The translations under genes and the position numbers were made by a program. A stretch of 64,000 nucleotides of DNA, taken from the NCBI GenBank assembly GCA_017999615.1, contig JAGNLM010000010.1:1-64000 (forward strand), read 5' to 3'. This DNA comes from Gammaproteobacteria bacterium. Its GTDB lineage: Bacteria > Pseudomonadota > Gammaproteobacteria > JAABTG01. The notes beneath the pieces were generated by a model. It did no database searches. It saw nothing but the letters and a program-made list of their open reading frames with translations, and was not told the origin of the DNA. Of the stretch, positions 9,825-13,291 are shown one piece after another (within the stretch, counting starts at the first letter, position 1; every line of letters starts with the position of its first letter).

Positions 9825-10937
9825 ATGAGCATGCTCTTTTCTCCCCTGAAGGTCGGCCAGCTGGAAGTGCCGAACCGGGTCGTGATCGCACCGATGTGCC
9901 AGTATTCGGCCGAGGAGGGATGCGCAAGGCACTGGCATCTGATCCACCTGGGGCAACTGGCGGCCTCCGGCGCGGGCCTGCTGATCATCGAGGCCACGGC
10001 GGTCGCTCCCGAGGGGCGGATCACCCCGTTCGACCTGGGGCTCTACTCGGACACGGCCGAGGAGGCGCTCGGCAAGGTCATCGGGGCGGCACGCGCGGTC
10101 TCGGACATCCGGCTGGGGCTCCAGCTCGCCCACGCGGGACGCAAGGCATCCAGTCAGGCCCCCTGGGATGGAGGCGCCCTGCTCTCACCCGCCCAAGGCG
10201 GCTGGCCCACCGTCGCCCCTTCGGCGGTCCCGCACTCCCCCGGGGAGACACCTCCGGCGGCCCTGGACGAAGCGGGCCTGCAGCGCATCCGGCAGGCCTT
10301 CGCGCAGGCAGCCGCGCGCGCCGCACGCCTCGGGCTCGACCTCGTCGAGGTGCACGCCGCCCACGGTTATCTGCTGCACGAATTCCTCTCCCCGCTCAGC
10401 AACCGGCGCACCGACCGCTATGGGGGCTCGCTGGAGAACCGCATGCGCTTCCCCCTGGAGGTCTTCGAGTCGATTCGCGCGGCCTTCCCCTCCGACAAGC
10501 CCGTGGGCGTCCGCATTTCCGCGACTGACTGGGTCGACGGCGGCTGGGACGTCACCCAGAGCATCGCGTTCTCCAGGGCGGTGGAAGAGCGCGGCTGTGC
10601 CTACGTGCACGTCTCGAGCGGGGGCCTGTCTCCGGACCAGAAGATGACGGTAGGGCCCGGCTACCAGATCCCCTTCGCGAGACAGGTCCGCGAGCGAGTC
10701 GCACTGCCCGTGGTCGGCGTAGGTCTCGTCACCGAGCCGGAGCACGCGGAGGCCATCGTCCTGCAGGGGCAGGCCGACCTCGTCGCCCTCGGCCGCGGCA
10801 TGTTGTACGACCCCCGCTGGCCCTGGCACGCCGCAGCCAAACTCGGCGGCCAGGTGAGCGCCCCGCGGCAGTACTGGCGCTGCCAACCAGCCGGGCAGGA
10901 GAGCCTCTTCGGGGTCACCCGCATGGGCAAGCGCTGA
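9825..10937 (+). CDS. old yellow enzyme family NADH:flavin oxidoreductase (YqjM-like)
   Basis: 370 residues, a complete FMN TIM barrel. Seen: LFSPLKVGQLEVPNRVVIAPMCQYSA at the N-terminus (Cys of the YqjM class near residue 25), LQLAHAGRKA, the paired catalytic region VEVHAAHGYLLHEFLSPLSN, RRTDRYGGSLENRMRF, and the phosphate-binding GVGLVTEPEHAE with VALGRGMLYDPRWPWHAA. These enzymes reduce activated alkenes with NAD(P)H. AGGA precedes the ATG at 9825; an ATG two codons later is also possible. A small inverted repeat (CGTCAC-N5-GTGACG, 9786-9802) lies just upstream and could be an operator. Confidence 0.92.
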   Translation: MSMLFSPLKVGQLEVPNRVVIAPMCQYSAEEGCARHWHLIHLGQLAASGAGLLIIEATAVAPEGRITPFDLGLYSDTAEEALGKVIGAARAVSDIRLGLQLAHAGRKASSQAPWDGGALLSPAQGGWPTVAPSAVPHSPGETPPAALDEAGLQRIRQAFAQAAARAARLGLDLVEVHAAHGYLLHEFLSPLSNRRTDRYGGSLENRMRFPLEVFESIRAAFPSDKPVGVRISATDWVDGGWDVTQSIAFSRAVEERGCAYVHVSSGGLSPDQKMTVGPGYQIPFARQVRERVALPVVGVGLVTEPEHAEAIVLQGQADLVALGRGMLYDPRWPWHAAAKLGGQVSAPRQYWRCQPAGQESLFGVTRMGKR

Positions 10938-10953
10938 CGCAAGATCGACCCGA

Positions 10954-10972
10954 CGCCGCGCCAGACGCGGCG
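10954..10972 (+). terminator. hairpin after the oxidoreductase gene
   Basis: Perfect 7-bp stem CGCCGCG/CGCGGCG with a 5-base loop, 17 bases after the stop codon. There is no T-run after it, so intrinsic termination is uncertain; it may instead protect the mRNA 3' end. Confidence 0.3.
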
Positions 10973-11054
10973 CTGGGCACGGGACCCGGTACGCGGTACC
11001 GTCTGGCGCTCGTGGTGGCGTGAGGATTCCGACAGGGTGTCAAGGGCAACTCGC

Positions 11055-11555
11055 ATGAGCGATAACGCGGGCCGCATCGTACGAGGGACCGGGGACAAGG
11101 GATTCGGGTTCATCCGTCCCCGCACGGAGCGTACCGGCGGTGGCCAAGGCGCCCGGAGCACGGGCTTGCGCCCTCTGCCGCTCGACACCCGGACCTGGCT
11201 CGTTGCCGGCCTTGCGTTGTTCTATCTGGCCGGCGCAGCGAGCGTGCTGCGCACGAGCCCCATTCCCCTTCTGGCCTACCCCGTCGCCAGCGCGCTCGCC
11301 TTTCTCGTGTATGCCTACGACAAGTACCGCGCGATCCAGGGGCACTGGCGGGTGCCGGAGTCCACGCTGCACCTTCTGGAACTGGTCGGTGGCTGGCCAG
11401 GTGCCTACGTTGCCCAGCAAACGATGCGGCACAAGACGGTCAAGATCTCCTACCAGGTCACCTTCTGGCTGATCGTCGCGGTCCACGTGGCCTTCTGGAC
11501 GGCGTGGCTCGTGGACCCGGCGATGGTGCGCGAGGCCCTGGCCGCGGCACGGTAG
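11055..11555 (+). CDS. DUF1294 membrane protein with vestigial cold-shock domain
   Basis: 166 residues. It begins with a short piece of a cold-shock domain (GRIVRGTGDKGFGFIRP, containing the RNP1-like KGFGFIRP) but the remaining strands are missing and a Gly/Arg linker follows. The membrane part (about residues 48-166) has DUF1294 features: two to three hydrophobic segments, FLVYAYDKYRAIQGHWRVPE, the loop LLELVGGWPGAYVAQQTMRHKT and KISYQVTFW. Full-length relatives carry a complete cold-shock domain in front, so this looks like a family member whose RNA-binding part has been reduced. Confidence 0.82.
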   Translation: MSDNAGRIVRGTGDKGFGFIRPRTERTGGGQGARSTGLRPLPLDTRTWLVAGLALFYLAGAASVLRTSPIPLLAYPVASALAFLVYAYDKYRAIQGHWRVPESTLHLLELVGGWPGAYVAQQTMRHKTVKISYQVTFWLIVAVHVAFWTAWLVDPAMVREALAAAR

Positions 11556-11617
11556 TCGGAAGTAGTCCTGGGTCGCCTCCTACCGCCAAGGCGGCTGCGA
11601 CAAGCCAGCGGCGTCCC

Positions 11618-11637
11618 GCGGTCGTTCCCCCGACCGC
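11618..11637 (+). terminator. hairpin between the DUF1294 and DUF4143 genes
   Basis: GCGGTCG/CGACCGC stem of 7 bp with a 6-base loop (TTCCCC). It ends 6 bases before the long inverted repeat that covers the next start codon. There is no T-run, so a termination role is only possible. Confidence 0.3.
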
Positions 11638-11643
11638 TCGTTG

Positions 11644-11686
11644 TGATATACAGAATGAACGGTTATTCTTTCATTCATGTATATCA
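11644..11686 (+). promoter_or_regulatory. long inverted repeat across the start codon of the DUF4143 ATPase
   Basis: Left arm TGATATACAGAATGAA (11644-11659) pairs with TTCATTC-a-TGTATATCA (11670-11686): 16 pairs interrupted by one extra A, which is the A of the ATG (11677). The loop is 10 bases. The stretch is AT-rich against a very GC-rich background. It could be an operator for an autoregulatory or dedicated repressor, or an mRNA hairpin hiding the start. No separate Shine-Dalgarno is visible, so translation may be leaderless or controlled by this fold. Confidence 0.6.
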
Positions 11687-12849
11687 AAAGGTACGCCGAT
11701 CAGGCCCTTGAAGACCTCCTCGCCGGCACCAAGGTCGGCATCGTGCTGGGCGCCCGCCAGGTCGGGAAGACCACGCTGGTCGAGCACGTGCTCCAGGGCC
11801 GCAGGGCGCTGTTCCTCAACTTCGATGTGGAGGTCGACAAGGCCCGCTTCCGGGCCGCGGCGGCCCTGCCCCCTGCCGACGCCCTGCGCGCCCTCGGCAG
11901 CCCCCCGGTGCTGGTCATCGACGAGGCCCAGCGCCTCCCGGAGGCGTCCCGCATCGTCAAGGGCTGGCACGACGCCCGCCTGCCGCTGAAGGTCCTGCTC
12001 CTCGGCTCCTCCTCGCTCGACCTCCTCGACCAGGCCGCGGAGAGCCTCACCGGGCGTAACCGCAAGTTGGTGCTGCCACCGCTGCTCTTCTCCGAGACCC
12101 TCGCGACCCAAACCTGGGCGACCTCGGAGCTGCCCCGCGAGCACCTCTGCCGGCACTTCGCCCCGCAGCTGCGCGCCTGGCTGCTGCAGCGCCTGGCCTT
12201 CGGCAGCTATCCCGAGGTGATCCTGACCCCCGACCCCATTGCCCTGCTGCGCGAGCTCAGCGCCGACTACCTCTGGAAGGACGTGCTGCAGACCGGGCTG
12301 GTGAAGACACCGGACCTGATCAGGCGCCTGCTCCTGCTGCTCGCTCACCAGGCCGGCGCGGAGGGGTCGATCAACGAGCTGGCCACGCAGCTCTCGATGG
12401 CGCGCCCCACGGTCGAGCGATACCTGGAACTGCTGGAGCAGACCTTCGTGATCTTCCGCCTGCCCTCCTTCAGCACCAACCCGCGCAAGGAGATAGCCAA
12501 GGGCCGCAAGGTGTTCTTCTGGGACACGGGGATCCGCAACGCCCTGCTGAACGCCTTCTCCGCCGACGCCCTGCGCCCGGACATCGGCGCCCTCTGGGAG
12601 AGCTGGGTCATCGCCGAGATCGCCAAGCGCAACGCGCTGCTCGGCGCCCCCGCCGAGCTCTTCTTCTGGCGCTCCCGCGCGCAGTCGGAGGTCGACCTGG
12701 TGGTGAAACAGGGCGATCGCCTGAGGGGCTTCGAGATCAAGTGGTCGGGCCGACCCGCCGCGGGGCGGGCCTTCCGTGACGCCTACGGTGTGACGGTGGA
12801 GAAGATCGGACCCGAGAACCCCTTCGCCGCGGAATGGCTTCAGGGGTAG
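11677..12849 (+). CDS. AAA-type ATPase with DUF4143 domain
   Basis: 390 residues. Walker A GARQVGKTTL (about 25-34), Walker B VLVIDEAQRL (about 77-86), sensor-like LLGSSSLDLL, then the central ELSADYLWKDVLQ region. A winged-helix-like part follows (SINELATQLSMARPTVERYLELLEQTFVIFRL). The C-terminal DUF4143 nuclease-like fold has the pattern FYWRS...EVDLVV..G..L.G.EIK (here FFWRSRAQSEVDLVVKQGDR and FEIKWSG). Such proteins are common single-gene accessory elements of unknown role; the EVD...EIK set resembles a PD-(D/E)XK core. Start: ATG inside the inverted repeat. Confidence 0.9.
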   Translation: MYIKRYADQALEDLLAGTKVGIVLGARQVGKTTLVEHVLQGRRALFLNFDVEVDKARFRAAAALPPADALRALGSPPVLVIDEAQRLPEASRIVKGWHDARLPLKVLLLGSSSLDLLDQAAESLTGRNRKLVLPPLLFSETLATQTWATSELPREHLCRHFAPQLRAWLLQRLAFGSYPEVILTPDPIALLRELSADYLWKDVLQTGLVKTPDLIRRLLLLLAHQAGAEGSINELATQLSMARPTVERYLELLEQTFVIFRLPSFSTNPRKEIAKGRKVFFWDTGIRNALLNAFSADALRPDIGALWESWVIAEIAKRNALLGAPAELFFWRSRAQSEVDLVVKQGDRLRGFEIKWSGRPAAGRAFRDAYGVTVEKIGPENPFAAEWLQG

Positions 12850-12860
12850 GTCTTTGCTTT

Positions 12861-12936
12861 TGGTGGGCCGTGGAGGACTCGAACCTCCGACCTACTGATT
12901 AAGAGTCAGCAGCTCTACCGACTGAGCTAACGGCCC
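12861..12936 (-). tRNA. tRNA-Lys(CUU)
   Basis: Cloverleaf read on this strand: GGGCCGT acceptor, D-arm with AGCTCAGTCGG, anticodon loop CTCTTAA (CTT), T-arm GGTTCGAGTCC and encoded CCA (12863-12861). Last gene of the four-tRNA transcript. Confidence 0.97.
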
Positions 12937-12950
12937 TTCACTTCAGAACA

Positions 12951-13027
12951 TGGGGTGGGCGACAGGGCTCGAACCTGCGACAACCGGGACCACAACCCGG
13001 GGCTCTACCAACTGAGCTACGCCCACC
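12951..13027 (-). tRNA. tRNA-His(GUG)
   Basis: Cloverleaf with anticodon loop TTGTGGT (GTG) in a CCGGG/CCCGG stem, T-arm GGTTCGAGCCC, encoded CCA. The extra 5' G (position -1) opposite discriminator C, a histidine tRNA hallmark, is encoded. Third in the Pro-Arg-His-Lys operon. Confidence 0.97.
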
Positions 13028-13052
13028 ATCAACTCTCTGCGTCCCCTCCGGT

Positions 13053-13129
13053 TGGCGCGCCCGGCAGGACTCGAACCTGCTACCCTCGGCTTAGAAGGCC
13101 GATGCTCTATCCGGGTGAGCTACGGGCGC
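13053..13129 (-). tRNA. tRNA-Arg(UCU)
   Basis: GCGCCCG acceptor stem, anticodon loop CTTCTAA (TCT) in a TCGGC/GCCGA stem, T-arm GGTTCGAGTCC, encoded CCA (13055-13053). Second in the operon. Confidence 0.97.
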
Positions 13130-13174
13130 TCTATCCCCGCGCAGGCCCGGGTTCCCGCCCGGCGTGCTCCCGTC

Positions 13175-13251
<77 letters not shown>

Positions 13252-13291
13252 CGGTAACCGACGCCCGCGAAACAACCGCGTAAGGCGCGTA

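Follow-up and report, generated by a model that had tools for sequence, protein, structure and literature searches.

A conserved palindrome over a leaderless-type promoter at the start of a DUF4143 ATPase gene, a candidate portable operator

The window, by which we mean the whole stretch of 64,000 nucleotides that was analysed, contains a gene whose product matches AAA_14 (PF13173; E 6.8e-24, 84.8 bits against a cut-off of 27) and DUF4143 (PF13635; E 5.9e-40, 137.1 bits against a cut-off of 28.1) in Pfam (Table 1). The initial annotation of this DNA, made from the letters and their open reading frames, had described DUF4143 ATPases as genes with no agreed role. That description needs updating, as in PADLOC the family has profiles under the name PDC-S01, a phage-defence candidate, and profile PDLC04789 matches residues 1–381 of the window protein (best E 2.8e-104). 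The accessible part of PMC12988326 ranks PDC-S01 fourth by frequency among the defences of prokaryotes. No NCBIfam or PHROG profile matched the window protein at E ≤ 0.01, and a sequence comparison with solved chains gave nothing below E 0.1. The gene lies in a segment (9876–12860, with an FMN oxidoreductase gene, DUF1294 and DUF4143) that has no DNA match in a genome of the same genus (G001), the folD of which is 97% identical. The contigs of that genome break at both borders (9875 and 12861), adjoining tRNA-like genes, and the segment is either an island or an assembly gap.

An AlphaFold2 model of the protein, built with 34 sequences (pLDDT 75.9), places an AAA+ domain first, then a winged helix at about residues 197–283, and last a C-terminal core of helix-strand-strand-strand-helix-strand order. 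The modelled winged helix consists of helices 197–204, 213–225, 232–239 and 243–255, with wing strands at 259–268 and 271–281, and HTH_IclR matches residues 217–255 (E 0.0003, under the curated cut-off). Residue D340 is invariant and E353 and K355 are conserved in at least 90% of the aligned sequences (alignment A3), and the PD-(D/E)XK motif is present in 189 of 224 family proteins. The C-terminal domain modelled alone (pLDDT 83.8) recovered mostly PD-(D/E)XK proteins in VIA (BpuSI, VRR_NUC, McrC, Can2, Hjc and EcoRV), at Z scores of only 5.0–6.9. A Foldseek search with the same domain gave no match at E ≤ 0.001, and the assignment of the nuclease fold therefore rests on topology, motif and VIA. 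Residues 1–292 resemble the archaeal ATPases PABY2304 (2qen; Z 13.1, rmsd 5.0, 245 aligned) and SSO1545 (2fna; Z 12.2, rmsd 5.1, 242 aligned), as well as the A. pernix Orc/Cdc6 protein ORC2 (Z 11.4, rmsd 5.3, 256 aligned), with CED-4/NLR proteins also close behind 2qen and 2fna in VIA. The nuclease domain of the window protein, after residue 295, lies beyond all of these matches. Taken as modelled, the protein combines an ORC/STAND-like AAA+ ATPase, a winged helix and a predicted PD-(D/E)XK nuclease.

Table 1. Features of the DUF4143 gene and its start region, in window coordinates.
Feature	Positions	Strand	Remarks
-35-like hexamer TTGTGA	11641–11646	+	4/6 to TTGACA
Inverted repeat at the start codon	11644–11686	+	16 pairs, A of the ATG bulged; right arm enters the first codons; register kept in part by relatives
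Family palindrome, operator candidate	11647–11674	+	Consensus halves TATACARAATNACN and GGTTATTYTGTATA, centre 11660/11661; window keeps 8/14 pairs
-10-like hexamer TATTCT	11664–11669	+	4/6 to TATAAT; spacer 17 nt; end 7 nt before the ATG
AAA_14 + DUF4143 protein (PADLOC PDC-S01)	11677–12849	+	390 aa
Walker A GARQVGKTT, residues 25–33	11749–11775	+	Residues 25–31 and 33 invariant, 32 at least 90% (34 sequences, A3)
Winged-helix region, residues 197–283	12265–12525	+	AlphaFold2 model; residues 178–211 of low confidence
Predicted PD-(D/E)XK nuclease core, residues 303–378	12583–12810	+	D340, E353, K355; model topology

The start of the gene had drawn attention for a near-perfect inverted repeat, and we confirmed its 16 Watson–Crick pairs, the sole break being the A of the ATG. 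The left arm is TGATATACAGAATGAA (11644–11659), the loop has 10 nt, and the right arm runs as TTCATTC (11670–11676), the bulged A (11677) and TGTATATCA (11678–11686). The accompanying remarks on composition were borne out as well: the GC fraction is 0.37 at 11630–11689 against 0.57–0.85 in most other 60-bp segments of 11000–13279, and no Shine-Dalgarno sequence is seen ahead of the ATG at 11677. When the 64 kb were scanned for stems with 16 or more pairs, no more than one bulge and a loop of 3–30, two were found, this dyad and a GC-rich stem. Equally long stems were absent from three shuffles of the whole window and from all 2000 shuffles of the local 120 nt. The GC-rich stem (innermost pair 54868/54887) sits within a 745-aa reading frame that we take to resemble a penicillin-binding protein, and it is probably a product of chance or coding bias. 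A gapless score does not allow the bulge, and by it the start-site dyad has 9 pairs (p 0.023) and is thus less extreme.

Forty relatives of the window protein were obtained from a tblastn-confirmed scan of genome contigs. Those with the conserved palindrome described below are 53–82% identical to it, and the 33 aligned with it in A3 are 54–82% identical; the hosts are Pseudomonadota (Chromatiaceae), Verrucomicrobiota, Myxococcota, Planctomycetota, Acidobacteriota, Armatimonadota, WOR-3 and others. In a tree of 34 sequences the window protein groups with those of Chromatiaceae (98/91), and phyla are mixed elsewhere; the phylum label changes 12 times, with a minimum of 9 and a mean of 16.4 after shuffling. 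These sequences, nearly all from MAG contigs, suggest that the gene has been transferred between phyla. DUF4143 is patchy in the phylum of the window, being present in 26 of 150 sampled genomes. Four close relatives (L066, L068, L062 and L072) appear broken or partial, with early stop codons or partial matches, and given these the gene may often be lost. In three genomes of 1.7–1.9 Mb from the same class (G020, G054 and G077) the window protein has 19, 23 and 21 matches, and a viral scan of 30 stretches gave three loci at 28–34% identity.

The element that is conserved among the homologues is a 28-bp palindrome, TATACARAATNACNGGTTATTYTGTATA, the centre of which lies 4–5 bp upstream of that of the 16-pair dyad. 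We analysed it in alignment A2, which has 31 sequences, the window and 30 relatives from several phyla. This alignment omits six of the 37 sequences of alignment A1 (L047 and L067, shifted by one base, and L064, L065, L069 and L070, in which the promoter is farther from the ATG) and retains L063, whose matched frame starts without an ATG. In the palindrome register 69.8% of cells are paired, compared to 34–45% after sliding by 1–3 columns. Cells with double changes number 37, against 26.6 ± 4.6 after shuffling (a count reached by 9 of 500 shuffles), and compensatory variants are seen, as with TTTACAAAAT/ATTTTGTAAA in L055. The overall percentage paired was matched by 69 of 500 column shuffles, and the conserved symmetry is therefore stronger evidence here than the covariation. 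A third half-site, ATTCTG, occurs upstream in many relatives and is absent from the window (2/6).

The upstream regions of the relatives align nearly free of gaps up to the ATG, with the consensus ATTnTGnnACTTGnAnTATACAAAATnACAGGTTATnCTG followed by ATGTAT. We read this consensus as a sigma-70-type promoter, with a -35 of TTGnnn, about 17 nt, a -10 of TATNNT, 7 nt and the ATG. TATNNT stands at -13 to -8 in 24 of 32 family sequences, and 22 of the 32 have TTG with TATNNT 15–19 nt downstream. The corresponding TTGTGA-17-TATTCT-7-ATG of the window is weak (8/12), and a stricter scan (at least 9/12) of 11400–11800 returned no promoter; its geometry fits leaderless sigma-70-type spacing, in which the -10 lies some 6–8 nt before the start and the -35 is at 16–18 nt. 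Across the family the palindrome overlaps the gene's own promoter, and the window copy does so with the partial symmetry given in Table 1. A distant relative from a Desulfatirhabdium MAG (L070) has its palindrome and promoter farther upstream, and its ATG is preceded by a Shine-Dalgarno-like AAGGAG, so that leadered versions exist. A predicted operator and promoter at the start of the gene are well supported by these alignments.

The exact register of the 16-pair dyad is a local variant of this conserved promoter-operator. Among the relatives 57.5% of its cells are paired, against 23–47% after sliding, and its covariation does not exceed that of shuffles (57.1% paired expected); each of the 30 relatives retains between 1 and 12 of the 16 pairs. 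The comparison of DUF4143 start regions across genomes, which had been proposed as a check, gives a divided answer, in that a dyad is kept near homologous genes and the register first noticed is kept only in part. There is a substantial chance, somewhat short of even, that this register is a by-product of the promoter-operator, in which TATACA happens to pair with the TGTATA of the first codons (ATG TAT ATC). TATACA and ATGTAT are each conserved in the relatives, as such a by-product would have it, and the lack of covariation in the register agrees. Against it, the remaining 10 pairs are perfect too in the window, where the local shuffles never gave such a stem, and the full symmetry may have re-formed in the lineage of the window. 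The by-product concerns the register only, and it can be true together with the reading of the site that we prefer.

We next consider DUF4143 genes at large. The survey comprised 232 distinct genes. They were drawn from genomes related to that of the window, 25 genomes in which relatives of the window gene occur, and four records of plasmids or phages. From 288 ORF hits we removed 19 without a Walker A motif, three without a start and one that was too short, and 33 duplicates were dropped from the resulting 265; the genes kept start with ATG (212), TTG (11) or GTG (9). Starts were picked by their distance to the Walker A lysine, independently of any dyad, and gapless inverted repeats in -60 to +15 were scored against 300 dinucleotide shuffles. 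Dyads at p ≤ 0.01 were found in 63 of the 232 genes and in 3 of 250 neighbour genes. The enrichment over neighbours holds for representatives less than 45% identical to one another (17/73; Fisher p 1e-9) and for the loci from L158 onward (22/93; Fisher p 5e-11), which were chosen by Pfam matches, several batches of them in the 25 genomes selected for holding relatives. Beyond the window's own family the counts are 59/197, and 22/92 for the loci from L158 onward; L158–L186 alone have dyads in 5 of 27 and promoters in 10 of 27. The same genes examined at -215 to -140 gave 3/72 at p ≤ 0.01 and 9/72 at p ≤ 0.05, the latter above the 3–4 expected. A first, smaller run (18/62 against 0/150) is superseded by these numbers. 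Other accessory genes (Fic, AlbA_2) served as a further control, in which one of 25 usable loci was significant, too few to be firm; 55 loci had been collected, of which 23 had no usable ORF and seven no usable ATG, and a cruder version also gave 1/25. About three quarters of DUF4143 genes have no significant gapless dyad. When sequences are scored singly, the window's own family has just 4 of its 37 genes at p ≤ 0.01, because bulged or degenerate dyads are missed by the gapless score.

Promoters of the leaderless type (at least 8/12, with the -10 ending 5–9 nt before the start) accompany 92 of the 232 genes, compared to 12 of 345 controls, and are found in 21 of the 73 representatives and 40 of the 93 loci from L158 onward. 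Their distance to the start peaks at 6–7 nt, and at a threshold of at least 9/12 the counts are 60/232 and 5/345. Shine-Dalgarno-like sites are rarer in the DUF4143 genes (33/232) than in controls (102/345). The dyad sequences vary clade by clade. The expectation of a shared control site thus held for the architecture, which is common to DUF4143 genes, and failed for the sequences, which differ between clades. By these counts, the layout of a dyad with a leaderless-type promoter is a common predicted design in the family. The longest of the 63 dyads is a perfect 29-bp inverted repeat with a 6-nt loop and the start codon in its right arm (L125, G013:C37; score 29). The dyad of L183 scores 24, with the start codon inside, and those of L018, L143 and L258 score 18. 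Direct repeats before the ATG were seen by eye in L007, L014, L020 and L076; in L007, AAAGTTACGATTGGCCGAC abuts the ATG and two imperfect copies lie upstream. In the first run direct repeats counted 7/62 against 0/150, and in the larger run 13/232 (4/73 representatives) against 3/250. Visible by eye in a few clades, they are not counted among the main results.

These data bear on whether the dyad acts as DNA or as RNA. The initial annotation had offered, besides an operator, an RNA hairpin that would mask the start codon and thereby control translation. The 101-nt region around the dyad folds stably (-32.3 kcal/mol, z -3.5; none of 200 shuffles equal), in 19 of the 63 significant dyads the right arm extends at least to the A of the start codon and in 12 it spans the whole codon, and G·T cells outnumber A·C cells in the family palindrome (44 and 28). 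However, the -10 ends 7 nt before the ATG in the window and 6–7 nt before it at the family peak. With this spacing the transcript would start at or next to the ATG, and the left arm is predicted to lie outside the mRNA. Furthermore, the mismatches in the 63 dyads have no excess of G·T over A·C (12 and 13), the register of the 16-pair dyad in relatives has 50 G·T and 59 A·C, and loops are of at least 11 nt in 18 of the 63. On the promoter spacing and the lack of a wobble excess in the significant dyads, we consider the hairpin highly improbable and set it aside. We hold it equally improbable that the dyads serve the movement of the gene, as recognition or insertion sites, and have no part in regulation. 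The wide transfer that is likely for this gene would agree with such sites, as would the homology, whose limits by eye lie immediately ahead of the promoter and at the stop codon. On the other hand, dyads in many genes lie over promoter elements whose distance to the start codon is fixed, and no matching element is seen by eye at the 3′ end. Beyond the stop codons, conservation judged by eye is confined to the close pair L054/L055, and a transposon-like 3′ end was accordingly set aside.

To address what binds the site, the upstream-DNA similarity of gene pairs was regressed on the identity of each domain (224 proteins). For pairs 25–60% identical (15,329 pairs) the coefficients were -0.042 for AAA, -0.031 for the linker, 0.126 for the winged helix and 0.056 for the nuclease, and none of 200 permutations reached the winged-helix or the nuclease value. 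The standardised partial coefficient of the winged helix was 0.119–0.148 in four identity ranges, with 0 of 200 permutations as high; AAA and linker identity had negative coefficients. That of the nuclease was 0.048–0.056 in three ranges (0, 0 and 2 of 200 permutations as high), and for pairs 30–50% identical it was 0.015 (50/200), with the winged helix at 0.119 (0/200). In sliding 13-residue segments the wing (265–283) is high, at about +0.10, and the top segment is 151–163 (+0.133), which is outside the winged helix and is unexplained. The gene pairs are not independent, and the regression is therefore suggestive: upstream similarity appears to track the identity of the winged helix above that of the other domains.

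The dyad could instead be an operator for a regulator of the host or of a mobile element, and not for the DUF4143 protein. The weaker association of the nuclease and the peak outside the winged helix give this alternative some room. Nevertheless, a pattern of the left part of the site (11645–11668), at up to three mismatches, occurs once in the 2.47-Mb genome, at the site itself. A search with the family consensus gave no match at three mismatches, a weak test that also missed the window's own site. A host regulon was set aside, the left-part pattern being found at the window site alone. In addition, the palindrome accompanies the gene in hosts of different phyla, and the dyads are clade-specific, as self-recognition would predict. 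We regard such a regulator as unlikely, though it deserves more weight than the hairpin or the movement site.

The reading that we prefer, to which we assign a probability of about 0.58, is that the site is a portable promoter-operator repressed by the product of its own gene. A promoter and an overlapping palindromic operator would belong to, and travel with, a single gene. RNA polymerase would use the -35 TTGTGA and the -10 TATTCT and start at or beside the ATG. The resulting leaderless mRNA would do without a Shine-Dalgarno sequence, which suits a gene that moves across phyla. Protein bound to the palindrome would block the -35/-10 region and turn the gene off. The palindrome would most likely be bound by the winged helix of the gene's own product, and autorepression by this route is the most likely mechanism. 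The autoregulatory operator first proposed for the dyad is thus the best reading of the site, favoured by the conserved palindrome on the promoter, the single occurrence in the genome and the tracking by the winged helix, with binding by the gene's own product as its conjectural part. The ATPase and nuclease domains would be the sensor and the effector of the candidate phage-defence protein. Many genes in other DUF4143 clades show this layout with differing dyads of their own, which would let copies in one genome avoid cross-repression. More speculatively, and with clearly lower confidence, DUF4143/PDC-S01 genes may form a large class of one-gene immune switches, each uniting a repressor, an ATP-dependent sensor and a nuclease with a private palindrome and a leaderless promoter. 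Release of the protein from its operator, by foreign DNA or an altered ATP state, would bring about a burst of its own leaderless mRNA, and more than ten copies could share a genome without cross-talk. A promoter-operator beside many PDC-S01 genes would offer a direct handle on the control of a common defence candidate, and a self-contained leaderless unit would help to explain how single genes work in hosts of different phyla.

Self-contained operators on a promoter are familiar from autoregulated toxin-antitoxin and restriction-modification control genes. Those systems are pairs or sets of genes, whereas the DUF4143 unit is one gene. Palindromic operators are likewise the sites at which BrxR/CapW and RptR act. 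The accessible parts of PMC9122601, PMC9122588, PMC9122589 and PMC12255303 describe the BrxR/CapW WYL regulators and RptR as transcription factors over defence genes. These are separate regulator genes; here, in contrast, the candidate repressor is the ATPase-nuclease itself. Within the DUF4143 family, the AAA_14/DUF4143 gene TT_P0211 of Thermus thermophilus is up 6.6-fold with plasmid in an Argonaute-bearing strain, according to the accessible part of PMC4406477. The pTT27 gene TT_RS11170, probably the same gene, has TTGTCT-17-TATCAT-6-ATG, with TGAATGA/TCATTCA across the -10 by eye. Our literature search, which took in few subscription papers and no bioRxiv preprints, returned no account of PDC-S01/DUF4143 control, leaderless or autoregulated, and the terms "promoter", "autoregul" and "repressor" are absent from the main text of PMC12988326. 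The closest known system is PDC-S01 itself, which the accessible part of that paper describes as an ATPase fused to a domain of the PD-(D/E)XK superfamily, with multiple inter-domain transfers. The window protein matches the PDC-S01 profiles and is likewise an ATPase with a predicted PD-(D/E)XK domain, and the promoter-operator layout would be an addition to the system as described there.
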